Virus record (IMG/VR): IMGVR_UViG_3300042197_000323
Location: 1-23,604 of that record
Source of the DNA: a virus
Length of the DNA: 23,604 nt
Reading direction: 5' to 3' (one strand)
Below, piece after piece: positions 3,499 through 17,958 of the stretch. Each line of letters starts with the position of its first letter. Within the stretch, counting starts at the first letter, position 1. The notes under the pieces were generated by a model, which was given only the letters and a program-made list of their open reading frames with translations, did no database searches and was not told where the DNA came from. The position numbers and the translations under genes were made by a program.

Positions 3499-4186
3499 AA
3501 TTATATTTATCAACATCATCCTTTGAAATTAATTTCTCTATTCTTTTTATGTTGTCGATAAATGAAATTTCTAATAACATAAGCGTTTTATGGTCTTTTA
3601 CATAAAAATAATTACCAGCAGTCCAATACTGTTCTTTGATATTAGCAAGTGCAGTTTTTCCTATTTTGCATTTTTGTGAATTATTTTCTAACCAGTGCGA
3701 TAGATTAACACTAACTTTATGTTTTAAATATACTTTATATTGATATTCTGGTGTTTTGTTTGTTAGTATAATGTTAGGAATATTTGTTAAAATAGACTTA
3801 TTAGTTTCGGTAGGCTCCCACCATTCTATAAGATTTATATTACGTTTTATTACATTCAACCATGATAATTCGTTTGATGCTACTGAAATTGTATTGTTTT
3901 CTGTTCTTATTATATAGGAGTTAAAGTCTTGGGTTTGTAAATATGATAGAAAAAGTTTAGCATACAGAAATTCTTCAGTTGATATTGTTTCTTCGTAGCG
4001 GTAAATATTTCTTAATAAAGGTTTTCCTGCAAGATACAAGTTGTCCAATCTTTGAATTTCTTTAAGTGCATGCGCCCATTTATTTCTATTCCAAGTTTTA
4101 GTAAATATTGTAGCTAGTTTATTATAAAAAACTATTTTATACAGATATTTGTCGTATATAAGTTTTTTTGTTTCAAATGTTTTCAT
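3482..4186 (-). CDS. conserved T4-like phage hypothetical protein, 234 aa
   Basis: A basic, aromatic-rich protein of 234 residues from the ATG at 4186 (a GTG at 4204 would add six residues; neither has a clear SD). It begins MKTFETKKLIYDKYLYKIVF, has a central IEWWEPTE, and ends with a segment containing KVYLKHKVSV, YFYVKDHKTLMLLEI and a Lys-rich helix. I recall proteins of this layout (KVYLK... then Y.YV.D.KTL) as uncharacterised in pelagiphages and T4-like cyanophages. No enzyme motif, signal peptide or membrane segment is visible. The start overlaps the end of clpA by 14 bases, so the two are probably translated from one message. Confidence 0.7.
   Translation of the reverse strand: MKTFETKKLIYDKYLYKIVFYNKLATIFTKTWNRNKWAHALKEIQRLDNLYLAGKPLLRNIYRYEETISTEEFLYAKLFLSYLQTQDFNSYIIRTENNTISVASNELSWLNVIKRNINLIEWWEPTETNKSILTNIPNIILTNKTPEYQYKVYLKHKVSVNLSHWLENNSQKCKIGKTALANIKEQYWTAGNYFYVKDHKTLMLLEISFIDNIKRIEKLISKDDVDKYNYGIEQ
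3504..3511 (-). promoter_or_regulatory. candidate T4-type late promoter (GATAAATA)
   Basis: An exact match to the NATAAATA late-promoter box lies on the minus strand inside the end of the upstream gene. If the usual T4 spacing applies, transcription would begin almost at the ATG at 3498, giving a leaderless or nearly leaderless mRNA. This makes the site less certain than the other late promoters here. Confidence 0.4.
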
Positions 4187-6416
4187 GAATTTTATCGGTT
4201 TCACAATCTAACACAATTGAGTTATTTCTATAATCAATTATTACGCTACCGCCATTTTTTAACTGGCCAAACAACATTTCTCTACTTAATGGACGCTTAA
4301 TGTCTTTGTCTATTACTCTTTGTAGAGGGCGAGCACCCATCTTAGGATCAAAGCCTTTTTCGACTAGATAATCGATTGCATCGTCTGTTACTGTAATTGC
4401 AATGTCTTTATCTAATACAAGATTTTTGAGTTCTAATAGGAATTTACCTACAATTTTAATCATAACTTCTTTGCTAAGTTTAGCAAATGTAATAGTTGCA
4501 TCTAATCTGTTTCTAAATTCTGGAGCAAAGAATCTTTTAAATTCGCTATTGTCATAATCCTTATCAAAAGAATCTCCAAATCCTATGTTATTTTTTTCTG
4601 ATTCTCTTGCACCTAAATTGGTGGTTAAAATTAGTATACAATTTCTTGCATCAGCTTCTTTGCCATTAGATCCAGTAACTTTTCCGTTGTCCATTATTTG
4701 CAATAGAATTTGCGACACATCAGGATGTGCTTTTTCAATTTCGTCGAGTAACAATACACAATTGGGGTTTTCTTGCAATCTTGTAATAAGTAATCCGCCA
4801 TTGTCTTCAAACCCTACATAACCAGGAGGAGAACCTATCAATTTAGATACAGAATGTTTTTCCATAAATTCACTCATATCAAAACGTACAAGCTTTACTC
4901 CTAAGTGTTTTGCTAATTGTTTAGCAGTTTCAGTTTTACCAGTGCCTGTCGGCCCCATGAATACAAAACTTCCTACTGGCTTGTCATCTGGTTTTAGTCC
5001 TGCTTGACTTACAAGAATTTTATCAACAATAGACTCTATAGCTTCGTCTTGTCCATAAACATTGTGTTTTAGCTGACGTTCTAAATTAGCTAGATTGTCA
5101 CTTTCTTTTTGTTCTACTACTTCTTTGGGTAGATTTACAATTTTACTCAATTCAAATTGTATCTGTTCTTCGCCCACAATCTTGTTATCTGTTTGATCTT
5201 TTACCTTGAATCTACTACAAGCTAGATCGATTAAGTCGATTGCTTTGTCTGGTAATTTTTTATCAGATTGATATTTCACTGTTAATTTTACTGCGGCTTC
5301 GATTGCTTCTTCTGTAATTGTAGTATTATGAAACTTTTCGTAATATTTTTTAATGCCTTTTAGTATATCTTTGGTATTTTCCGCAGACGGTTCTGTGATA
5401 GTTACTCGTTGAAATCTACGCATCAATGCACGATCTTTTTCGAAATACTTTCTATATTCTTCCCATGTAGTAGATGCTATAACTTTAATATCACCTTTGC
5501 TCAGTGCAGGTTTAAGCATGTTTGCAAGATCGTTTGCACTGTTCTGTCCCCCTGCTCCTGCACCTGAAATCATATGTGCTTCGTCAATAAACAGAATAGT
5601 CTTACCTAGTTTTACTAATCCTTGTAAAACCAACTTGAATCTTTCTTCAAAGTCACCTCTATATTTTGATCCTGCTAGCATAGATCCAATATCAAGATTT
5701 AATACTTGATAGTCTTCTAGAAAACTAGGAACAATTTTTTTAACGATATTGTATGCAAGACCTTCTGCTATTGCAGTTTTCCCCACTCCCGGATCACCTA
5801 CCAATAGAACGTTATTTTTATTTCTTCGACCTAGTGCAAGTGCAAGAGTTTCTAGTTCTTCGCTTCTACCAATAATAGGATCTATTTTGTTTTTCTTTAC
5901 TTCTTCATTTAAATTAGTAGTAAAAGAACGCAGGGCTTTTTTAACATCATTAGAAATTTCTTCTGTTTCTACTTCTTCGTCGTCTAGTTCATTTTTAACA
6001 AAACCTGCAAACTTTTCTTTATCAATGTTGCCTTTTTGCAAATAATAAAAAGCAATGCTTTTTCTCTCATTAAGCATACTAATTAATACATCACTTAATT
6101 GAATATGATTTCTTCCGTTAAACAGAACCTGTGTAAATGCTCTATTAAGAACTCTTTCAACTGTTTGTGTTTTTTTAGGTTTATATTTTTCTAAATCAGT
6201 TCTAATATCGTTGCAATTATTTTTCAAATGATGTTCGATATTACTTTTTATGTAATCGACCTTTGCACCAAACATTGTAAGTAAATTAACAAAGTTTTCT
6301 TCACATAACATTGCAAACAACAAATGCTCTAGTGTTACATATTCATGTTGTAATTTACGTGAATCATTAACTGCTTTGTCAAAGACAAGTTGTAGTTCGT
6401 CGCTGGGTTCTATCAT
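4173..6416 (-). CDS. clpA: ClpA-like AAA+ unfoldase
   Basis: This 747-residue two-ring HSP100 protein has a Clp_N region (about 1-140). D1 has Walker A GDPGVGKT (207-214), pore loop KYRG (251-254) and Walker B ILFIDEAH (274-281). D2 has Walker A GPTGTGKT (488-495), pore loop GYVG (532-535), Walker B LLLDEIEKAH and sensor-2 GARPLQR (694-700). There is no coiled-coil M-domain between D1 and D2, so it is of the ClpA kind and not ClpB, and the length fits E. coli ClpA. At 611-613 it has an Ile-Gly-Phe loop where ClpA carries IGL and ClpX IGF, the hook that docks on ClpP. No ClpP gene is in the window, so it could work with the host peptidase or alone as a remodeller. The start ATG at 6416 lies 3 bases after dnaJ, with AAGGAAT as ribosome site. 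Confidence 0.95.
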   Translation of the reverse strand: MIEPSDELQLVFDKAVNDSRKLQHEYVTLEHLLFAMLCEENFVNLLTMFGAKVDYIKSNIEHHLKNNCNDIRTDLEKYKPKKTQTVERVLNRAFTQVLFNGRNHIQLSDVLISMLNERKSIAFYYLQKGNIDKEKFAGFVKNELDDEEVETEEISNDVKKALRSFTTNLNEEVKKNKIDPIIGRSEELETLALALGRRNKNNVLLVGDPGVGKTAIAEGLAYNIVKKIVPSFLEDYQVLNLDIGSMLAGSKYRGDFEERFKLVLQGLVKLGKTILFIDEAHMISGAGAGGQNSANDLANMLKPALSKGDIKVIASTTWEEYRKYFEKDRALMRRFQRVTITEPSAENTKDILKGIKKYYEKFHNTTITEEAIEAAVKLTVKYQSDKKLPDKAIDLIDLACSRFKVKDQTDNKIVGEEQIQFELSKIVNLPKEVVEQKESDNLANLERQLKHNVYGQDEAIESIVDKILVSQAGLKPDDKPVGSFVFMGPTGTGKTETAKQLAKHLGVKLVRFDMSEFMEKHSVSKLIGSPPGYVGFEDNGGLLITRLQENPNCVLLLDEIEKAHPDVSQILLQIMDNGKVTGSNGKEADARNCILILTTNLGARESEKNNIGFGDSFDKDYDNSEFKRFFAPEFRNRLDATITFAKLSKEVMIKIVGKFLLELKNLVLDKDIAITVTDDAIDYLVEKGFDPKMGARPLQRVIDKDIKRPLSREMLFGQLKNGGSVIIDYRNNSIVLDCETDKIHENI

Positions 6417-6419
6417 ATT

Positions 6420-7235
6420 TTATTCCTTGATAAGATTTTTTATTTCTGTTAATTTTGCAATTATAAGTTTGTCATCTATAACTGGTATTTCAGTTTCTAC
6501 CTGTACATAAACATTGCCTTTTTTTCTTGTATGTAGATCCGGTATACCGTATCCTGCTATACTAAAAATTGTTCCTGGTTTTGTTCCTTTAGGTATTGTA
6601 AGTTTAATGGTTTTATCATCTAACGTATTGACAAATATAACACACCCTAGCAATAAGTCAAATACATTTACCAGTTCTTTAGTTGCAAGATTGTTACCGT
6701 CGCGTGTCCAACCTTTATTGTAGATAATTTTTAATCGTACAATTAGATCGCCTCTTGGATAATTTTTATTTGAATCATCTCCCAGTCCTTCATAGCGAAT
6801 TGTATCTCCGTCACGTGCTCCAGCAGGTATATCTATATTAACAGTTTCTACCTTGCCATTGCTTACATGATATTGTAATATTAAGGTTTTACCTGTTAAT
6901 ATGTCCTTTAATTCTACATTTGCTGCTAAATTAATATCTCTGTTTTTAGGTCTACGGTTCATACCGAAATTTAAATTGAAAAAATCATCGAAAGGATTTC
7001 CAAACGGATTTTGTCTAAAATTAGCACTGTTAAAATGAAATTGCGGTTGCGGATTGTCGTATTCCGCTCGTTTATTACCGTCACTTAATGTTTCGTATGC
7101 TTCGTTTATTTGTTTAAAAACTTCTGGGTCACCGCCCCTGTCGGGATGGTGAGTTTTTGCTTTATCACGATACGCTTTTCTTATTTCATCTGATGTTGCG
7201 TTTCTGTTAACGCCTAAAATTGAGTAATAGTCCAT
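6420..7235 (-). CDS. dnaJ: DnaJ-like co-chaperone (type II, no zinc fingers)
   Basis: Residues 1-65 are a J-domain (MDYYSILGVNRNATSDEIRK) with the HPD triad at residues 30-32, which stimulates DnaK ATPase. A Gly/Phe/Asn-rich linker (about 68-95) follows, then a C-terminal substrate-binding region with GDTIRYEGLGDD and GTIFSIAGYGIPD typical of DnaJ CTDs. The CxxCxGxG zinc repeats of full DnaJ are absent, so it is like CbpA/type II. At 271 residues it is a little shorter than CbpA. Acting on host DnaK is the expected role, since no DnaK is seen here. The gene sits directly before clpA, which suggests a chaperone pair. The SD before the ATG at 7235 is weak. Confidence 0.93.
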   Translation of the reverse strand: MDYYSILGVNRNATSDEIRKAYRDKAKTHHPDRGGDPEVFKQINEAYETLSDGNKRAEYDNPQPQFHFNSANFRQNPFGNPFDDFFNLNFGMNRRPKNRDINLAANVELKDILTGKTLILQYHVSNGKVETVNIDIPAGARDGDTIRYEGLGDDSNKNYPRGDLIVRLKIIYNKGWTRDGNNLATKELVNVFDLLLGCVIFVNTLDDKTIKLTIPKGTKPGTIFSIAGYGIPDLHTRKKGNVYVQVETEIPVIDDKLIIAKLTEIKNLIKE

Positions 7236-8133: not shown

Positions 8134-8515
8134 TTAATTCTGTCTCCGTTAAAGGTGCTCCAGACAAGATTTCAAAACATCTTCCTGCATTAAATGTTCC
8201 TCTATTTACTGCTCTTTGAATACTATCTGGCTTTTCTGCTGCAATTAATCCTAAATCCATATCTGCTAGTTTTGCAGATAATCTATTGTTTTGTCGGCGT
8301 ATTTCTGCATATGCTTCATTTATCTTAGTTAGCTCTTGCTGTGCAGCAGCATAGTCTGCCTCCATTTGTTTGATTGCAGCCTCGTTGGTCTGGACTGCAA
8401 TCTCTAGTTTAGCATTGTTTTCGACTAAGATTGTCATACGCTTTTGGGTATCAGTATAATACCAATATCCCAAGCCCCCCATGGCAATGATAATCATAAT
8501 CAAAAATTTTGACAT
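8024..8515 (-). CDS. inner-membrane spanin (Rz-like)
   Basis: The 163-residue product has one N-terminal membrane anchor (about residues 3-20, FLIMIIIAMGGLGYWYY) and a long coiled coil (about 25-88, rich in Glu, Gln, Lys and Ala). A C-terminal part carries two cysteines (Cys113, Cys139) flanking FEILSGAPLTE, the pattern seen in Rz-type proteins. The tail is Thr/Asn/Gln-rich. It is the i-spanin partner of the overlapping lipoprotein. The start ATG at 8515 shares TAATG with the endolysin stop, so the lysis genes are translationally coupled. Confidence 0.82.
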   Translation of the reverse strand: MSKFLIMIIIAMGGLGYWYYTDTQKRMTILVENNAKLEIAVQTNEAAIKQMEADYAAAQQELTKINEAYAEIRRQNNRLSAKLADMDLGLIAAEKPDSIQRAVNRGTFNAGRCFEILSGAPLTETELNAKNGEEFNKECPWLWPGPATGGVQSTNAPTDTNNQ

Positions 8516-9381
8516 TACGCGATACCCATCTTTGCTAATGTTTTAGGCCCTACGACTCCATCGGCTGTTAATCCATTTTTAGTTTGCCATGCTTTTACTG
8601 CTTTTTCTGTTCCCGGTCCAAAATCACCATCTTCTTTTAGACCTAAAACTTTTTGCATTTTTTTAACCATGTCACCCTTACTACCTACTTTTAGTGTTGT
8701 AGTTGCGGATGCAGTTTCTGTTACAATTGCTTTAACATCAACCTTACCACCAAAAACTTCCATTGCTTTCTTGTAGCGGGCCTGACGATCGGCAAGACCA
8801 ATGTCTCCACCGTTGATAATCTTTGTCATTTTGACAACATCACCAGTATCAGCAACTTCATTGAGCTTCTTTGCATTCCAGAACCAGCAAGCAGACTCGA
8901 TGGCTCCTTTTTCTGTTGCAACATAATCCGCAGCTTGTTCTGCAGTCATATTAACAGTTTTGCCAAATGCAGTATAATTTTCCCTCCCAGTAAGTTGCTT
9001 TAGACCACGACCACGGAATCTCCAGCCATCGCCTTCTTTTACGTTGCCCATTTTTGAACTACGGAACTCATCCATGTAAACATAGTTTGCAATCTTCTCA
9101 GGATTCTTTGCATACTCAGCAGCATTACGCTTTCCTGGTCCAAAATAACGACCAAATATTTTTAGCAGTGTTTCTTCTCTATAATTTAGGTTTTCTTCTA
9201 GCGTCATAAAGTTGCCGCTTTCGTGAGCGCATTGTGCGATAAAACCAGCAACTCTTGCTTCAGTTGTAATATTGTATTTTGGTAAGATATCAACCAATGC
9301 ATTATACCATTCATCTACTTTTTTGTTTCCTGGTATAAGTGCTGCAAGTTGTTCTTTTGTAAATTTAAATTTAAAACTCAT
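8515..9381 (-). CDS. endolysin, GH19 lysozyme/chitinase-like with C-terminal peptidoglycan-binding domain
   Basis: The 288-residue enzyme has an N-terminal GH19-type domain (about 1-212). AQCAHESGNF carries the likely catalytic Glu54, LEENLNYRE has the second acidic pair (Glu62/63), and RFRGRGLKQLTGRENY lies at 121-136. A linker rich in Thr and Ala follows. Residues 229-288 form a PG_binding_1 domain (LKVGSKGDMVKKMQKVLGL, then DGVVGPKTLAKMG). It should cleave peptidoglycan glycan strands. There is no signal peptide, so release needs a holin. The ATG at 9381 has an AGAGGAAAAC ribosome site and overlaps the small Cys-rich gene by 11 bases. Confidence 0.92.
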   Translation of the reverse strand: MSFKFKFTKEQLAALIPGNKKVDEWYNALVDILPKYNITTEARVAGFIAQCAHESGNFMTLEENLNYREETLLKIFGRYFGPGKRNAAEYAKNPEKIANYVYMDEFRSSKMGNVKEGDGWRFRGRGLKQLTGRENYTAFGKTVNMTAEQAADYVATEKGAIESACWFWNAKKLNEVADTGDVVKMTKIINGGDIGLADRQARYKKAMEVFGGKVDVKAIVTETASATTTLKVGSKGDMVKKMQKVLGLKEDGDFGPGTEKAVKAWQTKNGLTADGVVGPKTLAKMGIA

Positions 9382-10266: not shown

Positions 10267-10775
10267 AGAGTAGGTTCTCCTGTGTCTTGAGATAGTACGT
10301 CAGCAGGTTGTGATTGTGCAGGCGGTGTTATTTCTTTGGCAGGCTGTACAGTTTCTATTTCCATATATCCGCTATAGATGTCTGCTATAAGTGTTTTCGG
10401 CATTTGAATTTGCACTATCCAAATACGTTCTAAATCTAACTTTCCCTTTTTTGTTCCAGGTCTAATGTCGTCGGGATCTCTAATTTTTCTTGGTTGTATT
10501 AAACTAGATCTAATATATTTTACTTTACAATCGTAATCTAGTAAACGTTTCCCTCCCATAGGATCAGGCATTTTATTGTAAGGCCACATGAAGGAACAAG
10601 TAACCCAATGACGACTTATTTTAGGACCGTCTGCCAATTCTCCATCTTGCCAGTTTGCATAAACATAAATGTCCAATTGATCTAATACTCGTTCAAAGTC
10701 TTTTAAGACAGTAAAACTAGTATTAGAATCATATATATTTTCTATGTTTTTAATTATATCTAAAATGTCGTGCAT
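10263..10775 (-). CDS. conserved T4-like phage protein, probably structural, 170 aa
   Basis: The start is ATG at 10775, with GGTGA 5 bases upstream; an in-frame TTG further up is less likely. The product begins MHDILDIIKNIENIY and contains WVTCSFMWPYNKMPDPMGG and RKIRDPDDIRPGTKKGKLD. It ends with a Pro/Gln/Ala-rich tail. I recall this combination (FMWPY..MPDP.GG, then PDD..PGTK) in T4-like cyanophage and pelagiphage proteins near virion genes; the role is not established. It is the first gene behind a late promoter and leads the lysis region. Confidence 0.7.
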   Translation of the reverse strand: MHDILDIIKNIENIYDSNTSFTVLKDFERVLDQLDIYVYANWQDGELADGPKISRHWVTCSFMWPYNKMPDPMGGKRLLDYDCKVKYIRSSLIQPRKIRDPDDIRPGTKKGKLDLERIWIVQIQMPKTLIADIYSGYMEIETVQPAKEITPPAQSQPADVLSQDTGEPTL

Positions 10776-10799
10776 TGTTTTCACCAAGTTTATTGTAAT

Positions 10800-10807
10800 T
10801 ATTTATC
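10800..10807 (-). promoter_or_regulatory. T4-type late promoter (GATAAATA)
   Basis: The exact NATAAATA box lies in the divergent intergenic region, 25 bases ahead of the ATG at 10775, with a ribosome site GGTGA between. By T4 spacing transcription should start about 6 bases past the box. It should drive the two probable virion genes and then the lysis cassette. Confidence 0.7.
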
Positions 10808-10850
10808 GTTATAGAAAAGTAAACAACTGTTTTTTTATTTACTGCTCAAA

Positions 10851-10858
10851 TATAAATA
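10851..10858 (+). promoter_or_regulatory. T4-type late promoter for phoH (TATAAATA)
   Basis: The box is a perfect TATAAATA, the canonical T4 late sequence, and is the only good one on the plus strand placed ahead of a plus-strand gene. The predicted start falls near 10864, exactly where a strong hairpin begins, so the phoH message would carry a structured 5' end. Confidence 0.7.
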
Positions 10859-10863
10859 TGATG

Positions 10864-10898
10864 TAGGGTCAATTTCCCCTACGGGAATAATGACCCTA
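10864..10898 (+). promoter_or_regulatory. hairpin in the phoH 5' leader
   Basis: TAGGGTCA (10864-10871) pairs with TGACCCTA (10891-10898), and an inner TTCCC/GGGAA stem closes a CTAC loop. The stems are separated by a small internal loop. It sits between the late promoter and the ribosome site AAAGGAGG (10914-10921). An mRNA-stabilising 5' stem-loop or a protein-binding site is possible. It lacks a direct U-tract, so a terminator is less likely. Confidence 0.6.
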
Positions 10899-10926
10899 TA
10901 TTTTAGATAACCCAAAGGAGGTCTTA

Positions 10927-11658
10927 ATGGGTCTGAAAAGAGCTTCACGCAAGCGTAATTATCAAACTAACTATCAATATAATAACAATATTATAGAGAT
11001 TGACCAATACCAAAAAAAGAAATCAGTTCAGATACTTCCTAGAAATAAAAATCAAGAAACATATTTGTTAGAGTTGTTGGATTCGAGGAAAGATATAGTC
11101 TTCGGAATAGGTCCTGCAGGAACTGGAAAAACACTTTTAGCCGTCCAAGTTGCTGTTAAACAATTCAAGGAAGGGTCAATTGATAAAATCATAGTTACCC
11201 GCCCTGCTGTTTCTGTCGACGAAGATCTGGGATTTTTGCCCGGTACACTTGAGCAAAAAATGGCACCGTGGACTCGACCTATATTTGATGTTTTGAGAGA
11301 ATATTTTAATGCAAGAGACATCGAAGAGATGATAGAGGAAGGTATTATAGAAATTGCACCACTTGCATATATGCGAGGACGAACATTCAAAAATGCCTTT
11401 ATACTAGCCGACGAAATGCAAAATGCTACACCTAATCAAATGAAAATGTTACTTACAAGAATTGGTGAAGGTAGTAAAATGGCAGTAACAGGTGATTTAT
11501 TACAAGCAGATCGATTAAAAGACAATGGGTTAATAGATTTTATTCAGCAGTTAGAAAATGCTGAAACTTCTAGACTTAGTGTCGTTCGGTTTCACCAAAA
11601 AGATATCGAACGCCATGAAGCAGTAAAAGAAGTTCTTAGGATCTATGGTGATGAATAA
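10927..11658 (+). CDS. phoH: PhoH-like ATPase
   Basis: The 243-residue protein has a basic N-terminus, Walker A GPAGTGKT (62-69), the PhoH signature VTRPAVSVDEDLGFLPG, Walker B with ADEMQNATPNQ (Asp162-Glu163), and VTGD (187-190). It covers the PhoH ATPase/helicase-like domain without the PIN domain found in PhoH2. Phage PhoH proteins are widespread in marine phages; their role is unsettled (RNA metabolism or phosphate-stress links are suggested). The ATG at 10927 has an excellent SD, AAAGGAGG, 5 bases upstream. It is the only plus-strand gene in the window, has its own late promoter, and ends at a shared terminator facing thyX. Confidence 0.95.
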   Translation: MGLKRASRKRNYQTNYQYNNNIIEIDQYQKKKSVQILPRNKNQETYLLELLDSRKDIVFGIGPAGTGKTLLAVQVAVKQFKEGSIDKIIVTRPAVSVDEDLGFLPGTLEQKMAPWTRPIFDVLREYFNARDIEEMIEEGIIEIAPLAYMRGRTFKNAFILADEMQNATPNQMKMLLTRIGEGSKMAVTGDLLQADRLKDNGLIDFIQQLENAETSRLSVVRFHQKDIERHEAVKEVLRIYGDE

Positions 11659-11661
11659 AAC

Positions 11662-11683
11662 TGTGCCGTAGAGATACGGCACA
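11662..11683. terminator. bidirectional rho-independent terminator between phoH and thyX
   Basis: A 9-bp perfect stem, TGTGCCGTA/TACGGCACA, closes a GAGA (GNRA) tetraloop. On the plus strand it is followed by AATTTTATATTTTT, and on the minus strand by GTTTTATT. It lies 3 bases from each stop codon of two convergent genes, the ideal place for a two-way terminator. Confidence 0.9.
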
Positions 11684-11686
11684 ATT

Positions 11687-12406
11687 TTATATTTTTGTTA
11701 ATAAAGGAAACACTTTAGCAATTATTTCTGCACAAGCAAGTGCAACTTCTATGTGCTCTTTCTGTGTACCATTTGCGCTGCGTAGCTGTAGATAATGAAT
11801 CCAACTACGTAAACTTCCTTTCATGTACAATTTGGAAATAGTATTTCCTTCAGGTAAAACACATCTTGCTTGTTCTTTTGCAATACCAACACCTTCACTT
11901 ATTGCCCATTCGTAAGTTTCTTTAGCTAGATCGATAACTGCTTGTTGTCGCTTTGCCCATTCTTTTTGAAGTTCCGGGTTATTAACTTCAACACTATTTT
12001 GACGATTTTTTAGGTCTTGTAATCGTGCTTCTCTCAAAACAAATGTATTGTTTAATTCGTTAGGATTGGCGTATCGCTGGCTGAATTCTTGGAATGAAAA
12101 GGATCTATGCCGTAACATTTGACGAGCAATATCTCTAGTAGTTTCAATTTCTAAAGTTACATCTACCATTTCTAGCGGAGACCAATGACTGTTTTTTATA
12201 AGGTACTGTATTAAGCGTTCACTGGTTTCTTCATTCATTTGGTTGGCAGGATTTGAAACTCTTGCACAAAATGCAACCAAATCTTGCAAAGTGTCAAACT
12301 GCGGTAGTTTATCTTCTTTATCTGGGTTGAGTGTTAAAAATTCTTCTTGTGCTTGTTTTACAAAGTCGTCATCGACTTCAGTATAACTAATTATTCTTGC
12401 CTTCAA
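11687..12406 (-). CDS. thyX: flavin-dependent thymidylate synthase ThyX
   Basis: The ThyX signature RHRSFSFQEFS (RHRx7S) and following QRY are present, after EIETTRDIARQMLRHR. ThyX methylates dUMP to dTMP using FAD, NADPH and methylene-tetrahydrofolate. The product is 239 residues from a TTG at 12406, which is preceded at 6 bases by TAAGGAG and gives the usual opening M-K-A-R-I-I-S-Y. Another in-frame TTG at 12412 abuts the SD and is less likely. The C-terminal YLQLRSANGTQKE fits the substrate-binding region. It supplies thymidylate for phage replication and ends at the shared terminator with phoH. Confidence 0.95.
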   Translation of the reverse strand: MKARIISYTEVDDDFVKQAQEEFLTLNPDKEDKLPQFDTLQDLVAFCARVSNPANQMNEETSERLIQYLIKNSHWSPLEMVDVTLEIETTRDIARQMLRHRSFSFQEFSQRYANPNELNNTFVLREARLQDLKNRQNSVEVNNPELQKEWAKRQQAVIDLAKETYEWAISEGVGIAKEQARCVLPEGNTISKLYMKGSLRSWIHYLQLRSANGTQKEHIEVALACAEIIAKVFPLLTKI

Positions 12407-12749: not shown

Positions 12750-13664
12750 TTATAGTCGAGCAAGTCTAATTAGAGTTGCTGCAAGATTTATTTCCGGATC
12801 AATCACAAGAGAATGATCTACCAATCCCTGTTTTATTACTAATATTGCAGATTCTTGTTTCTCGTCGTTGCCAAACAGATCAATATTATTGTATAACCAC
12901 CTGTAAATTTCTTCCATCTCGTCTGGCAGTGCTTGACTACAGATAAGTTTCCTTGCCTCGTTAATCTTGCCTTCTTTAAATAACTCTACCATGGCTATTC
13001 TATAATCGCTTGTGTCTGTGTCGGCTTCTTTGCTAACTAACGTTCCGGTGTGCGAGTTAAGCTGGATCTCTCCAATGCATTTGCGTAAATCCGGATAAAA
13101 CGCTTTTACAAAGCTGTCCAACACATCTAAATCAAACGCAATTTCTTCAGCAAACAGTATTTCGGCAAGTCGAGCAGTGTATTCTGTTAAATCTATTTTT
13201 TCAAAACGCAAGTGTTGGCATCTGCTATGTATAGCAGGCATAATTTTGTTAGGATAATTACAAGTTAAAATAAAGCGTACACTTTCACTGTAATCCTCCA
13301 TCAAATTACGAAGTGCAGGTTGTACCGAATTAATATTCATATAGTCTGCTTCGTCTATTAATACAATCTTAAAATCGCTAAACGGCATTGTTTGACAAAA
13401 CATAATCAGTTTGTCGACCCACTCAATCTTACGTGCTTCTTTACTACCGTTAGCAAACATCACGTCAGAATTTGCAACGCCTAGTTGATTGATAAGAATT
13501 TTAGCAATAGTAGTTTTACCTACACCTGCCGATCCACTCAACAATAGATGAGGAATAGAACCATCCTTAATCCATTGGTTAATCAAATCTCTATGTGTTT
13601 GATCCTTAAACACATATCCGTCTAGTGTCTTTGGTCGATACTTTTCAATCCATAACTGCTGCAT
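12750..13664 (-). CDS. 44: sliding-clamp loader large subunit (T4 gp44-like)
   Basis: The 304-residue AAA+ ATPase has the RFC/gp44 opening LWIEKYRPKTLDGYVF, Walker A GSAGVGKT (44-51), Walker B LIDEAD (Asp104-Asp107), and the SRC motif at 147-149 with its arginine finger. The end is a collar-like helical domain (about 230-304). With a gp62 partner it loads the gp45 clamp for the phage polymerase; neither partner is in the window. Length matches T4 gp44. The start lies within the end of the small upstream gene (20-base overlap). No alternative assignment seems plausible except a generic replication factor C subunit. Confidence 0.95.
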   Translation of the reverse strand: MQQLWIEKYRPKTLDGYVFKDQTHRDLINQWIKDGSIPHLLLSGSAGVGKTTIAKILINQLGVANSDVMFANGSKEARKIEWVDKLIMFCQTMPFSDFKIVLIDEADYMNINSVQPALRNLMEDYSESVRFILTCNYPNKIMPAIHSRCQHLRFEKIDLTEYTARLAEILFAEEIAFDLDVLDSFVKAFYPDLRKCIGEIQLNSHTGTLVSKEADTDTSDYRIAMVELFKEGKINEARKLICSQALPDEMEEIYRWLYNNIDLFGNDEKQESAILVIKQGLVDHSLVIDPEINLAATLIRLARL

Positions 13665-13824
13665 CTCTTGCCTTTACGTGGTTTTTAATAAAATTTACAG
13701 GAACAGAGGGATTCAACTCAATCAATTCTTGCTCTGTATATGTATCGGGTTGACGAATCCCATACCGCTTAAATTGATCAAATGCCCACTCTTCAAATTG
13801 CTGACGATTTTTAAATTTGCTCAT
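13645..13824 (-). CDS. small hypothetical protein, 59 aa
   Basis: A short helical, charged protein beginning MSKFKNRQQFEEWAFDQFKR and containing YTEQELIELNPSVPVNF. It fills the gap between the MazG-like gene and the clamp loader, overlapping the first by 14 bases and the second by 20 bases, a packing typical of this operon. A GGAG lies 12 bases before the ATG. I do not recognise the family. Coding status rests on position, the open frame and sensible composition. Confidence 0.6.
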   Translation of the reverse strand: MSKFKNRQQFEEWAFDQFKRYGIRQPDTYTEQELIELNPSVPVNFIKNHVKARDAAVMD

Positions 13825-14095
13825 TTATTAAATTGCTCCATTTGCTAAGTTTAATACGCTTTTCATTTACTCTAATGCCTAATTCACTATTAGTTAATAG
13901 ATTGTGTTCTACTAACAATTCAATCATACACAGCACATCGCCTGCTTCTTCTACAAGTTTGTCGTGCCATTCTGCTTCGATCTCTTGCTTGTTGGAATAT
14001 TTTCTTATAATTTTCATGCAGACTTGTGTGAGTTCGCCACACTCTTCAGCAGTGATTGCTACAAGTTGTTGTAAATCATTTAATGGTGTGGTCAT
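13811..14095 (-). CDS. MazG-like nucleotide pyrophosphohydrolase (short form)
   Basis: The 94-residue all-alpha protein has the ExxE...ExxD metal-binding pattern: EECGE at 17-21 and EEAGD at 49-53. This is the MazG/HisE-like fold that hydrolyses NTPs to NMPs and pyrophosphate with Mg2+. In phages such enzymes may clear dUTP or damaged nucleotides, or adjust alarmone levels; the substrate cannot be told. It begins 1 base after the stop of the tiny membrane peptide gene. A second MazG-family gene is at 16191-16598, of a different subtype. Confidence 0.82.
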   Translation of the reverse strand: MTTPLNDLQQLVAITAEECGELTQVCMKIIRKYSNKQEIEAEWHDKLVEEAGDVLCMIELLVEHNLLTNSELGIRVNEKRIKLSKWSNLINEQI

Positions 14096-14096
14096 T

Positions 14097-14183
14097 TCAA
14101 TAAATTAAACTTGCCAAGTATGGAATGCCTACAATCCAAAAAATTACTATAAATAAACTTAAAGTTAAACCTTTAAACATCAT
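14097..14183 (-). CDS. 28-residue single-helix membrane peptide coupled to cytochrome c
   Basis: The reading frame MMFKGLTLSLFIVIFWIVGI (20 residues), then PYLASLIY, is almost wholly hydrophobic with one Lys near the start, so it is a single transmembrane helix. Its ATG overlaps the cytochrome c stop as ATGA, with TAGGTG as ribosome site 7 bases upstream inside the end of the cytochrome gene. The stop is 1 base before the MazG-like start. Tiny hydrophobic subunits accompany many respiratory complexes, so a link to the cytochrome is tempting, but this is inference from position. It was found by reading the gap; its length is too short for similarity to decide. Confidence 0.5.
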   Translation of the reverse strand: MMFKGLTLSLFIVIFWIVGIPYLASLIY

Positions 14184-14548
14184 TGAACACCTATAGATTT
14201 AAGATAAGCGATAAGATTAGCACGGGTTTCTGCGTCTTTTTCTTTATATTGCATTTTCGTGCCTTTCACCATCTTTTTAGGATCAGTCAACCAAACATCC
14301 ATTAGTTCTTCTGTCCATACGGGATTTGCACTAGCCCATTCTGCAAAACCTTTTGAATACTTAAATTCTGTAGCAGCCGTACCTCTACCAAAAATGTTAT
14401 AGAGATTAGGCCCTGTGCCATTCTTTCCACCTTCTTCAACGGTATGGCAAACAGCACATTTTTTATATTGTTTTTCGCCTTGAGCAGCATCACCTTCTGC
14501 ATAGGCAACAGAAGTAGTAAGTAATAGAGCAGCAATAAAGTTTTTCAT
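14180..14548 (-). CDS. periplasmic class I cytochrome c
   Basis: The 122-residue precursor has a signal peptide (MKNFIAALLLTTSVAYA, cleavage after Ala17), the haem attachment motif CAVCH at 31-35 and GTGPNLYNIFGR, as in cytochrome c2/c-552 types. The likely axial ligand is Met99 in KGTKMQY. The final ANLIAYLKSIG helix is typical. It would be exported by Sec and matured by the host Ccm system, then carry electrons between a bc1-type complex and oxidase. All key residues are intact, so it should be functional. TAGGAG precedes the ATG at 14548. A phage-carried cytochrome c is unusual; the sequence looks alphaproteobacterial, suggesting acquisition from the host line. Confidence 0.93.
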   Translation of the reverse strand: MKNFIAALLLTTSVAYAEGDAAQGEKQYKKCAVCHTVEEGGKNGTGPNLYNIFGRGTAATEFKYSKGFAEWASANPVWTEELMDVWLTDPKKMVKGTKMQYKEKDAETRANLIAYLKSIGVQ

Positions 14549-14564
14549 GTCGTTCTCCTATAAA

Positions 14565-14741
14565 TTATGACCATTTTAATACAAAGAATGTAGCATCTTT
14601 GTTATTCTTAAATTTTACAAAAGTTAACTGTTCTATGGTCCAAATATCACCTACAGGACCATAACGATTGTACAACCACTCAACGGCTGCTAGTCTATAA
14701 TTAACTTCTAATCCTATGTGATCAAGATCAACAACTGTCAT
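14565..14741 (-). CDS. small hypothetical protein, 58 aa
   Basis: This short gene fills the gap between the exonuclease and cytochrome c. The product begins MTVVDLDHIGLEVNYRLAAV, contains EWLYNRYGPVGDIWT and ends TFFVLKWS. It looks like a compact soluble alpha/beta protein with no metal or membrane signature. The start shares ATGA with the exonuclease stop, and the stop lies just before the cytochrome c ribosome site. I think I recall similar short proteins in marine phages but cannot name one. Confidence 0.65.
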   Translation of the reverse strand: MTVVDLDHIGLEVNYRLAAVEWLYNRYGPVGDIWTIEQLTFVKFKNNKDATFFVLKWS

Positions 14742-15274
14742 TTTGTAAACCCAAAATGTTTAAACATAATTTGTACTGATTTTGCTTGGAAGTAAGCATC
14801 AGCAAGTGCGTTGTGCAAATCAGTTTGCATACTTTTTCGTGGATCAACTGGCATACGTTTAGTAATTGTTCTGCTATCACTAATTTGCCAAAACTGCCAC
14901 GGAATAGGCTTACCTACCATTCTATACATATTTTCTAAAATAGTTATATCGAATCCATAGCCTTGGCCCCATATTTCTTCAACGCCTACGACCCAACGGT
15001 TCAGTTGAGTAAGTGCTTCTTCTACAGTAATAGCACCGGTCTGGTCAAATGCCTCTTCCATAATAGCAGGATCTTGTTTACCCCACCATTCAATAGTGGA
15101 ATCTGAAGCAGTTCTACCTAACCTGTCTTGGTCGTCTACAAGAATTTTAAGATAAAGATCTGAGTGAGGTTGATCGTCTGTGAACGGATTAAATTTAACT
15201 GCTCCAAGACTGAGGACCGTTGCAGTGGGGTACACATCAAGTGTTTCCAAGTCTATCATACCATGGTTTGCCAT
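14738..15274 (-). CDS. DEDDh 3'-5' exonuclease (DUF5051/Rv2179c-like)
   Basis: The 178-residue product opens MANHGMIDLETL, giving Asp8 and Glu10 of exonuclease motif I. GYGFDITILE supplies Asp109, and HNALADA gives His154 and Asp159, so the DEDDh set is complete. It matches the phage 3'-5' exonuclease group in which IDLETL...P.A.VLSLGAV is conserved. It should degrade DNA or RNA 3' ends with two metals. I start it at ATG 15274, which overlaps the stop of the membrane gene as TAATG; the longer open frame to 15346 would run inside that gene in another frame. Confidence 0.88.
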   Translation of the reverse strand: MANHGMIDLETLDVYPTATVLSLGAVKFNPFTDDQPHSDLYLKILVDDQDRLGRTASDSTIEWWGKQDPAIMEEAFDQTGAITVEEALTQLNRWVVGVEEIWGQGYGFDITILENMYRMVGKPIPWQFWQISDSRTITKRMPVDPRKSMQTDLHNALADAYFQAKSVQIMFKHFGFTK

Positions 15275-15459
15275 TATTTGTTCTTTCTGTTTTCTTGTCC
15301 AATGCCTGAAAGTATAAGGAATACATACAGCAAAGGCCAAGCCCATCCTGCAAGATATCCTGTAATATGTAAAATCATTAGTGTAATACCAGTAGCACCC
15401 GTTGTGCCTATACCGCTTGTTTTTAATCCAACGATAACTTGCGGATCAGGAAACTTCAT
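15274..15459 (-). CDS. small membrane protein, 61 aa
   Basis: After about 15 polar residues (MKFPDPQVIVGLKTSG) the protein is hydrophobic from about residue 20 to 55, enough for two short helices separated near GYLAGWAWP, and ends with a charged NRKNK. The ATG at 15459 has a perfect GAGGAG ribosome site 7 bases away; an upstream TTG in frame lies before this site and is unlikely. That ribosome site is inside a predicted pseudoknot or hairpin (next entry), so translation may be controlled. I do not recognise the family. It lies between the BI-1-like gene and the exonuclease. Confidence 0.7.
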   Translation of the reverse strand: MKFPDPQVIVGLKTSGIGTTGATGITLMILHITGYLAGWAWPLLYVFLILSGIGQENRKNK

Positions 15460-15519: not shown

Positions 15520-16194
15520 TTATTCTCTATTGCCAAGAAGACTTAGCAACATTTGGAATAGGTTGATGAAGTTAAGATACAAATTAAGTGCAGTTGTAAT
15601 AGCAAATTTTGCAGTTTCTTCTGCTGTCATTCTACCGCTAACAAACATGCTTTTAGCCATTTGCGTATCATATGCCGTCAAACCTGTAAAAATAACTACA
15701 CCTATAACACTAACGGCAAATGCAATAGCACTAGATTGTAAAAAAATATTTACTATAGCAGCAACAATAATACCTATCAATCCTATAATAAGGAAACTAC
15801 CCCAGTTGCTGATGTCTTTTTTGGTTGTATAACCATATAAACTTGCCGCAGCAAAAACTGAAGAAGTAATAAAGAACACTTGGGCGATACTTGATGCAGT
15901 GTATGCAGCAAAGATAGTGCTAAGACTTACCCCCATTACAGCAGTAAATGCAAAGTAAAATGTTCTAACAGTAGAAAAACTCCAGTTAGGATTATACAGA
16001 AAAATCATACCAAGTGGAGCAAATACAAACAGCCACATAAGCGGACCCATTGCTGCCATAGCACCACTAGCATATGTTAGATACGCTACTACACCACTAA
16101 AGGCCAATCCTGCGGCTGTATAGTTGTATAGAGCAAGCATAAAAGTTCTCAGTGCTTCGTCATAGTAAGCACCGGTCATTGCACGAGTATTCAT
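15520..16194 (-). CDS. Bax inhibitor-1/YccA family membrane protein
   Basis: The 224-residue protein is a seven-helix membrane protein with the BI-1/YccA pattern: an N-terminal NTRAMTGAYYDEALRTFML, a conserved NYTAAGLAFSG first helix, NPNWS between helices, and near the end FTGLTAYDTQMAK followed by ALNLYLNFINLFQMLLSLLG. E. coli YccA of this family inhibits the FtsH protease; other members act as pH-sensitive calcium leak channels. Either use would help a phage. The N-terminus resembles alphaproteobacterial members. AAGGAGGGTGATCT gives a strong ribosome site, and the start overlaps mazG as ATGA. Confidence 0.9.
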   Translation of the reverse strand: MNTRAMTGAYYDEALRTFMLALYNYTAAGLAFSGVVAYLTYASGAMAAMGPLMWLFVFAPLGMIFLYNPNWSFSTVRTFYFAFTAVMGVSLSTIFAAYTASSIAQVFFITSSVFAAASLYGYTTKKDISNWGSFLIIGLIGIIVAAIVNIFLQSSAIAFAVSVIGVVIFTGLTAYDTQMAKSMFVSGRMTAEETAKFAITTALNLYLNFINLFQMLLSLLGNRE

Positions 16195-16607: not shown

Positions 16608-17009
16608 TTATGCAAATGCGTTAGCAGTAATTTTGTTAGGAGCAAAATCTGCAACGCTGGATTTACCAATTATAACGTCGTCAGGTTTAGTATTGCTCCA
16701 CCCCAGTATACTTTCAGTTTCAATCATACGCAACTCTTTTTCTTCACTACCGTCATCCATGTTAACACTTCTTGTCCAACGACCGTGTTCGATAAGAATC
16801 CAATCTCCTACACTGTACGGATCTTTATTATCGGGTCCTTTAGCATAAACCTGTCCCCATCGAGGATAAATTCCTCTAACGTTTCCGTCGTCGTTTGTTA
16901 TAATTAACCCTGCTCGAGTTTTTTGTTCGCCAAAATACATATTTTCTATAATTACCCTATTGCCTATAGGATGCAGTGTTCCAGCGATAGTATTAATATT
17001 TAACGCCAT
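16608..17009 (-). CDS. GroES-like co-chaperonin (T4 gp31 analogue)
   Basis: The 133-residue product has a GroES-type beta-barrel pattern: LHPIGNRVIIENMYFGEQK, then a loop with TRAGLIITNDDG where the GroEL-binding GIVL-type tripeptide sits (about residues 34-37). WGQVYAKGP and VGDWILIEHGRWT correspond to the barrel strands, and a final ILGW matches the last strand. A roughly 30-residue tail (NTKPDDVIIGKSS...) exceeds GroES. In T4, gp31 replaces GroES so host GroEL can fold the major capsid protein; the same role is inferred. GGTGA serves as ribosome site. No GroEL gene is in the window. Confidence 0.8.
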   Translation of the reverse strand: MALNINTIAGTLHPIGNRVIIENMYFGEQKTRAGLIITNDDGNVRGIYPRWGQVYAKGPDNKDPYSVGDWILIEHGRWTRSVNMDDGSEEKELRMIETESILGWSNTKPDDVIIGKSSVADFAPNKITANAFA

Positions 17010-17421: not shown

Positions 17422-17429
17422 TATTTAGT
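17422..17429 (-). promoter_or_regulatory. possible variant late promoter (ACTAAATA)
   Basis: This minus-strand box has one mismatch to NATAAATA. Its distance to the ATG at 17399 (23 bases) matches the geometry of the exact late promoters at 18803 and 22352, and a ribosome site lies between. It overlaps the stop of the polymerase-fragment gene. Confidence 0.35.
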
Positions 17430-17958
17430 CTCGTAAAAATTCACGCCAGTCTAAATTGTATTTTAGACTATCAATTTTATGAACTCCAATCAAATACAGC
17501 ACGTATGATGCTACACTCGATCCGCGACCTACGCCCCACACAATATTATTCTCACGCATAAAGCTTACAAGATAGATCATATATCTTAATAGATCGAGCA
17601 TTCCTCTTTCTTTGTAAGCAAAGAATTCTTCTTTAACTCTATCATATTCACTATCTTTACTGCATCTATCTAAAAGCCAGCCCCATAACATTTTGTCTGT
17701 TATGTTCTTATATTTGTCTGGCATAAACCATTCGCTTTGACACACACCGTCAAACGTTTTTTGATCTACATCAATAGGAATATATTTTTGCAGTTTTAGA
17801 AGACCTTGCTCTTCCATTGCAGCGTTGAAACGATCTACATCATCCGAAGGATCACAGAGGACTACATGGCATTTTTCTATGTTGCCACTATAGATCAAGT
17901 TGATAAGATCACGATTAGTAAATCTAGGAACACCTAGTTCATCTGTTTTCAAGAGCAT
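17425..17958 (-). CDS. C-family DNA polymerase (DnaE/PolC) fragment-like protein, no catalytic aspartates
   Basis: The last 40 of 177 residues read as the entry to a DNA polymerase III alpha palm: NNIVWGVGRGSSVASYVLYL (138-157), then IGVHKIDSLKYNLDWREFL, matching the DnaE pattern GRGS..GS.VAY.L.IT.IDPL.Y.L.FERFL. In DnaE the catalytic P-D-(F/I)-D-x-D-F block follows at once, but this gene ends at WREFLRD. So the catalytic aspartates are absent and polymerase activity is not expected. The first 135 residues resemble the region before the palm only loosely. I recall similar stand-alone fragments in marine T4-like phages. It may be a DNA-binding or interaction module. Confidence 0.75.
   Translation of the reverse strand: MLLKTDELGVPRFTNRDLINLIYSGNIEKCHVVLCDPSDDVDRFNAAMEEQGLLKLQKYIPIDVDQKTFDGVCQSEWFMPDKYKNITDKMLWGWLLDRCSKDSEYDRVKEEFFAYKERGMLDLLRYMIYLVSFMRENNIVWGVGRGSSVASYVLYLIGVHKIDSLKYNLDWREFLRD

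Follow-up and report, generated by a model that had tools for sequence, protein, structure and literature searches.

A complete gene for a class I cytochrome c, followed on the same strand by a 28-codon frame for a putative membrane peptide that begins inside its stop codon, was found in phage DNA in the window, by which we mean the whole 23,604-nt stretch of IMG/VR record IMGVR_UViG_3300042197_000323 analyzed here (Table 1). The cytochrome derives from a cellular gene and has been retained by selection. In the reading that we favor, to which as a whole we assign a probability of roughly 0.6, the phage cytochrome would feed electrons to the host oxidase, the peptide would be its partner in the membrane, and respiration would be sustained.

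Table 1. Features of the window and of two related viral contigs (L135, L136), with strand and basis of assignment.
Feature	Position	Strand	Basis
Class I cytochrome c, 122 aa	14180-14548	minus	Pfam, PDB and Foldseek matches
Putative N-terminal secretion signal, codons 1-17, AYA end then EGD	14498..14548	minus	Sequence inspection
CAVCH haem attachment motif, codons 31-35	14444..14458	minus	Sequence
Axial Met99 within KKMVKGTKM	14252..14254	minus	Sequence
Strong Shine-Dalgarno AGGAGA of the cytochrome gene	14554-14559	minus	Sequence
28-aa single-span hydrophobic membrane peptide	14097-14183	minus	Sequence; TM17 profile, 14.8 bits
ATGA overlap of cytochrome stop and peptide start	14180..14183	minus	Sequence
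Weak Shine-Dalgarno-like AGGTG for the peptide, within cytochrome codons	14188..14192	minus	Sequence
MazG-like NTP pyrophosphohydrolase, next gene of the operon	13811..14095	minus	phrog_4856, E 2e-16; 94% identical in L126
59-aa gene, in block common to L126	13645..13824	minus	93% identical in L126
T4-type clamp loader; first 48 codons close the L126-common block	12750..13664	minus	phrog_168, E 5e-77
Phage exonuclease, upstream flank	14738..15346	minus	phrog_255, E 4e-44
Phage endolysin	8515..9381	minus	phrog_181, E 1e-72
DUF1127 + c1 pair, example locus	L135:8015-8448		
TctA / SufE / serine hydroxymethyltransferase region	L136:1161-2699, 10293-11779		

The initial annotation had described a complete cytochrome c with a signal peptide, a CAVCH motif and an axial Met99, and both the features and their positions were confirmed, the signal by inspection: the N-terminus, MKNFIAALLLTTSVAYA, is followed by EGD and, read by eye, appears to be of the secretion type. 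A single haem motif is present (C31-A-V-C34-H35). Pfam PF00034 (Cytochrom_C) matched the protein at 43 bits against a curated cut-off of 21.3, the closest NCBIfam model was cytochrome c-550 CycA (55 bits, far under the cut-off of that model), and the top PDB match was a mitochondrial-type cytochrome c (E 1.5e-23). A medium-quality AlphaFold model (pLDDT 72, pTM 0.69) was searched with Foldseek, with 2yk3 as the best match (E 3.4e-6) and class I cytochromes c as all of the top matches; respiratory cytochromes c, Paracoccus c552 and c550 among them, are fold and PDB relatives. The predicted protein is assigned to class I cytochrome c by all sequence and fold features tested. It resembles the soluble class I cytochromes c (c2, c550, c552) known from alphaproteobacteria and mitochondria in its CxxCH motif, its axial Met in GTKM, its lysine face, size, putative secretion signal and fold, and differs from those of cells in being phage-encoded, in falling in a clade of its own, in having KGTKM in place of PGTKM, and in a stretch around W71 and WTxELMD that the phage proteins conserve. 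In mitochondrial cytochrome c the lysine face (Lys72, 73, 79) docks complex III (bc1) and the oxidase; K91, K92 and K98 of the phage protein are the equivalents of these three residues.

Relatives of the window cytochrome were detected by IMG/VR scans in at least 54 IMG/VR contigs, whereas neither tblastn against 50,697 isolated or deposited phage records (INPHARED) nor PHROGs yielded a match to it, which rules it out as a known gene of isolated phages; the view that such genes are rarely seen in phages thus holds for those two collections but not for IMG/VR. Residues C31, C34, H35, K91, K92, K95, T97, K98 and M99 were invariant in 15 viral relatives, the invariant core also including W71, W78 and ELMD, and pairwise dN/dS among the viral genes was 0.05-0.20. 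The viral cytochromes are under purifying selection. Two trees were built, the first from 16 non-redundant viral and 45 bacterial sequences, the second from 23 and 55, respectively. Placed against alphaproteobacterial cytochromes in this way, as had been suggested, all viral sequences fell in a single clade (bootstrap 100; support 100/95 in the first tree and 100/94 in the second) that adjoins the alphaproteobacterial ones. The nearest cellular sequence found (L140) has 57% identity to the window cytochrome, and the nearest named cells in a scan of ~85,000 species genomes with strict patterns were alphaproteobacteria. The viral clade is thus old within phages, with the reservation that the strict scan may have missed a more distant viral origin. 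The Pfam, PDB and fold matches, invariant residues, dN/dS values and trees all point to an intact gene of alphaproteobacterial type, and it very probably encodes a working cytochrome c, as first proposed. The hosts are probably alphaproteobacteria as well, judging from what the cytochrome is related to and from the subunit IV and DUF1127 genes that accompany it in other phages (see below). Two contigs (L386:5001-5408 and L387:5001-5408) encode a variant of the viral cytochrome c in which ~20 residues (TSVADDNSAFPALSVLGGSGAYN) are inserted after NRGVG.

The genes around the cytochrome are those of a phage. Encoded in the window are an endolysin and two candidates for Rz-like spanins, virion structural proteins, PhoH, an exonuclease, a piece of a DNA polymerase and a T4-type clamp loader, the last nearest, at 49%, to that of jumbo phages of the PA5oct group. 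A block comprising the cytochrome, the peptide, the MazG-like gene, the 59-aa gene and 48 clamp-loader codons recurs at 92-96% protein identity in L126, a T4-type phage contig with major head, portal and SbcC genes, and the remaining window proteins have no match there; because an otherwise different T4-type phage shares the block alone, the block seems to be mobile between different phages. A run of 154 bases covering the end of the cytochrome gene, the peptide and the start of the MazG-like gene (window 14030-14190, approximate) differs between the two contigs by at most one mismatch, against ~6% for the block as a whole (p 0.014). In L126 itself (14778-14934), the clamp loader breaks after 48 codons and joins a gp47-type gene via GGTGTTCAATGATGTTTAA, the same 19 bases as at the cytochrome/peptide junction of the window (14168-14192), which is a sign of recombination or misassembly.

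Misassembly of host DNA into a phage contig had been raised at the outset as an explanation for the cytochrome gene itself, as had its restriction to a single contig, and neither was found. The contig of one near relative (L011) does terminate inside the cytochrome gene, but the explanation is refuted by the present data and is given practically no credence: at least 54 viral contigs carry the gene, the clade is exclusively viral, and the neighbors are phage genes, with the cytochrome gene adjoining clamp loader, SbcC, portal and major head genes in L126, following a late sigma factor in L132, and lying between hsp20 and DNA polymerase in other phages. At least two independent contigs place the cytochrome gene in genuine phage DNA.

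The peptide frame translates to MMFKGLTLSLFIVIFWIVGIPYLASLIY and its start lies within the cytochrome stop codon (CAATGATG), as the initial annotation had read it; an AGGTG at -9 to -5 relative to the start would be the ribosome site that had been assigned to this tiny hydrophobic product, albeit a weak one. The peptide stop is 1 base ahead of the MazG-like gene and, given this gap and the start in the preceding stop, cytochrome, peptide and MazG-like gene appear to form one translationally coupled run. The suggestion that the pair forms a membrane-tethered carrier found no support as such, since the cytochrome signal appears to be of the cleavable type and the peptide would be a separate protein. 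Conservation of the peptide was compared in one close relative, L126, where 28 of 29 codons are identical to those of the window and a single change converts F to S; the frame does persist behind a second phage cytochrome, but this identity is weak evidence because the DNA there has hardly changed.

A second comparison was made with TM17, a family of small phage membrane proteins defined in this analysis, whose profile was picked after its likeness to the peptide had been noticed. The score of 14.8 bits was equaled by 1 in 20,000 shuffles of the peptide's own letters, and among 1,187 natural small hydrophobic frames higher scores were obtained by the peptide's own relative and by one likely TM17 member. 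The peptide has the TM17 transmembrane core K/R-G/D-L..F..I.F.I.G.P.L and stops after the membrane span, and the N-terminal CTT and C-terminal YC...PC motifs of the family are absent from it. Because the YC...PC tail is absent and the profile was chosen afterwards, the peptide is called a possible minimal relative of TM17 rather than a member; the similarity, over a short match, provides independent support for conservation of the peptide. No match to the peptide was obtained in a Pfam search, PF07835 (aa3 oxidase subunit IV) included.

Two other views of the peptide were weighed against these data. The 28-codon frame could be an untranslated accident of AT-rich, T-rich sequence, being short, lying in T-rich DNA that favors hydrophobic codons, and having as its sole close relative a nearly identical DNA in which the one difference changes the amino acid; its exact fit between two genes, with ATGA coupling at one end and the 1-base gap at the other, and a TM17 profile score above those of 19,999 of the 20,000 shuffles make such an accident quite improbable. 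The peptide could also be real and unrelated to a cytochrome that works as a carrier, with a part in lysis timing or superinfection or as a translation coupler to the MazG-like gene. The MazG-like start, 1 base past the peptide stop, is without a clear Shine-Dalgarno sequence, as would suit a coupler; the genes downstream of cytochrome c differ among phages, some encoding soluble proteins (c14, phasin-like); and the near-identical 154-nt stretch crosses gene edges and could thus reflect DNA exchange, not protein constraint. An endolysin and two Rz-like spanin candidates are already present elsewhere in the window, however, and the peptide resembles TM17, a family found directly 3' of cytochrome c in other phages, so that we hold an unrelated peptide to be unlikely, if deserving of some weight. 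That the peptide acts with a respiratory complex is possible, at a little under even odds.

In other phages, cytochrome c lies in a recurring group of genes, often between hsp20 and a gp43-type DNA polymerase. Upstream of it are DUF1127 and the ~59-aa c1, then a membrane protein of the DoxX type, whose place is taken by an alternative oxidase (AOX; PF01786, E 3e-77) in L015 and L042; downstream are small membrane proteins. Counted over 23 non-redundant viral loci (within 3 kb or less, same strand), c1 was present at 13, DUF1127 at 11, DoxX at 8, mem11 at 4, and AOX, TM17 and a COX4-like gene at 2 each, TM17 and COX4-like going together. A membrane-protein gene overlaps or touches the cytochrome stop in five lineages (the window, L008, L013/L016, L019 and L030). 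TM17 occupies the position of the window peptide, directly 3' of cytochrome c, in L349, and sits just behind cytochrome c in further phages; a cellular homologue of TM17 was rejected, with 2 marginal matches in 289 alphaproteobacterial genomes and none in the PDB. The mem11 family gave no credible match against the PDB and is present in OM43 phage Melnitz, where the surrounding 18 kb contains no further gene of the cassette.

Twelve of 13 members of the COX4-like family (c16) match PF07835, aa3 oxidase subunit IV (best E 1.3e-5); a member scored in detail reached 20.4 bits against a cut-off of 22, and the c16 profile gave a weak PDB match to Rhodobacter subunit IV (E 0.9). PF07835 itself was found in 13/17 alphaproteobacterial genomes versus 1/14 control genomes (Caulobacter). 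At least 117 viral contigs encode c16 (L166-L245, e.g. L133:9719-10003), often adjoining mem11, TM17 or DoxX, and at least 90 IMG/VR viral contigs encode AOX (L246-L325, e.g. L042:7394-7999). The viral AOX is of the PF01786, NERMHL type, not the plastid type, and a deposited phage, C48C1 (OQ984149, Kyanoviridae), has an AOX gene annotated as hypothetical. A nearby cytochrome c was absent at 73 of 80 viral COX4-like loci and at 78 of 80 viral AOX loci; cytochrome c was therefore rejected as a general partner of viral AOX (2/80 loci), and the parts of the cassette are mixed and matched rather than obligate partners. DoxX, AOX, COX4-like and DUF1127 genes were not found in the 23.6-kb window, nor were DoxX, subunit-IV-like and DUF1127 genes in contigs L126-L132. 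DUF1127 proteins are regulators in alphaproteobacteria; in many phages the small-gene pair of DUF1127 and c1 (GYSRAAAELARNGYHEEAKKCM) stands ahead of cytochrome c, AOX or the subunit-IV-like gene. In L136, a viral contig of 300 kb, cytochrome c and DoxX occur together with genes for a TctA tricarboxylate transporter, SufE and serine hydroxymethyltransferase.

In the favored reading, the phage would produce a periplasmic class I cytochrome c of its own, for which the host would provide export through its secretion system and haem through its cytochrome maturation system, and this protein would carry electrons from the host bc1 complex to an aa3-type (possibly cbb3-type) cytochrome c oxidase. 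Oxygen respiration, the proton gradient and the supply of ATP would thereby be kept up while host protein synthesis is off. The co-translated peptide would be a single-span inner-membrane protein, acting most likely at that electron-transfer step, and is likened to the small accessory subunits of oxidases: subunit IV of the aa3 oxidase (PF07835) is a small single-span subunit, and the window peptide would work like it, the PF07835 likeness itself belonging to c16, a cassette member in relatives. A role at the oxidase is supported by the invariant lysine face, the respiratory PDB and fold relatives, and the cassette with its COX4-like and AOX genes. The idea in the initial annotation that the pair bears on an oxidase thus gains real but indirect support, in that AOX (L015, L042), DoxX and COX4-like genes lie beside the cytochrome in relatives.

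Class I cytochromes c also donate electrons to cytochrome c peroxidases, and the phage protein could be protective rather than energetic, passing electrons to a host peroxidase or scavenging reactive oxygen. Several of the Foldseek matches are cytochrome c peroxidase complexes, and related phages carry AOX, which limits over-reduction; no peroxidase gene was seen beside the cytochrome, however, and the COX4-like neighbor in relatives indicates a terminal oxidase, so that a protective role seems rather improbable. We regard a broader proposal as tentative: many phages of aerobic alphaproteobacteria would carry a modular cassette for respiratory takeover that re-tunes the host aa3 oxidase, which their own cytochrome c, subunit-IV-like protein and small peptides would enter, with AOX substituting for the DoxX-type gene in some phages and the window cytochrome and 28-aa peptide as the smallest form of the cassette.

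Cyanophages carry genes of photosynthetic electron transport (plastocyanin, PTOX and others) that are thought to sustain electron flow and ATP in the infected cell. The genes described here likewise give phages their own versions of the electron carriers and terminal oxidases of the host, and differ in that they concern respiration rather than photosynthesis, that the probable hosts are non-photosynthetic, and that the oxidase of the relatives is of the AOX type (NERMHL motif). Takeover of photosynthetic electron flow by cyanophages is textbook knowledge, whereas energy supply in phages of respiring bacteria is an open question and virus-borne respiratory genes have so far been mostly isolated annotations. 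Those reported include cbb3 oxidase subunits, ccoP, cydAB, norB and soxCD (PMC3474794, PMC12713726, PMC8115048, PMC8190135). These genes, too, place components of respiratory electron transport on viral genomes; a stand-alone class I cytochrome c coupled to a membrane peptide is not among them, and for most no conserved cassette was listed. No phage class I cytochrome c, AOX or oxidase subunit IV was found in the literature searched, which covered work other than subscription papers and preprints, and in that literature the set of phage respiratory-chain genes has not been described before. The occurrence of such genes in many uncultivated phages suggests that phages adjust host respiration during multiplication. 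Since a conserved viral cytochrome c clade is tied to oxidase-type partners, supply or re-tuning of the terminal step can be directly tested.

Several other genes of the window were recorded. A full-length ClpA gene lies beside a DnaJ-like gene (4173-6416 and 6420-7235), and relatives of this ClpA occur in PA5oct-type, Atu_ph07 and Acinetobacter phages. Positions 15520-16194 encode a membrane protein of the Bax1-I/YccA type (PF01027, E 1e-52), for which no PHROG family was found and phage matches were distant and unannotated only; YccA modulates the FtsH protease. A stand-alone DNA polymerase piece of 177 aa (17425-17958, phrog_11127) suggests that the DNA polymerase of this phage may be split, and positions 16608-17009 encode a GroES-like or head-morphogenesis co-chaperonin.
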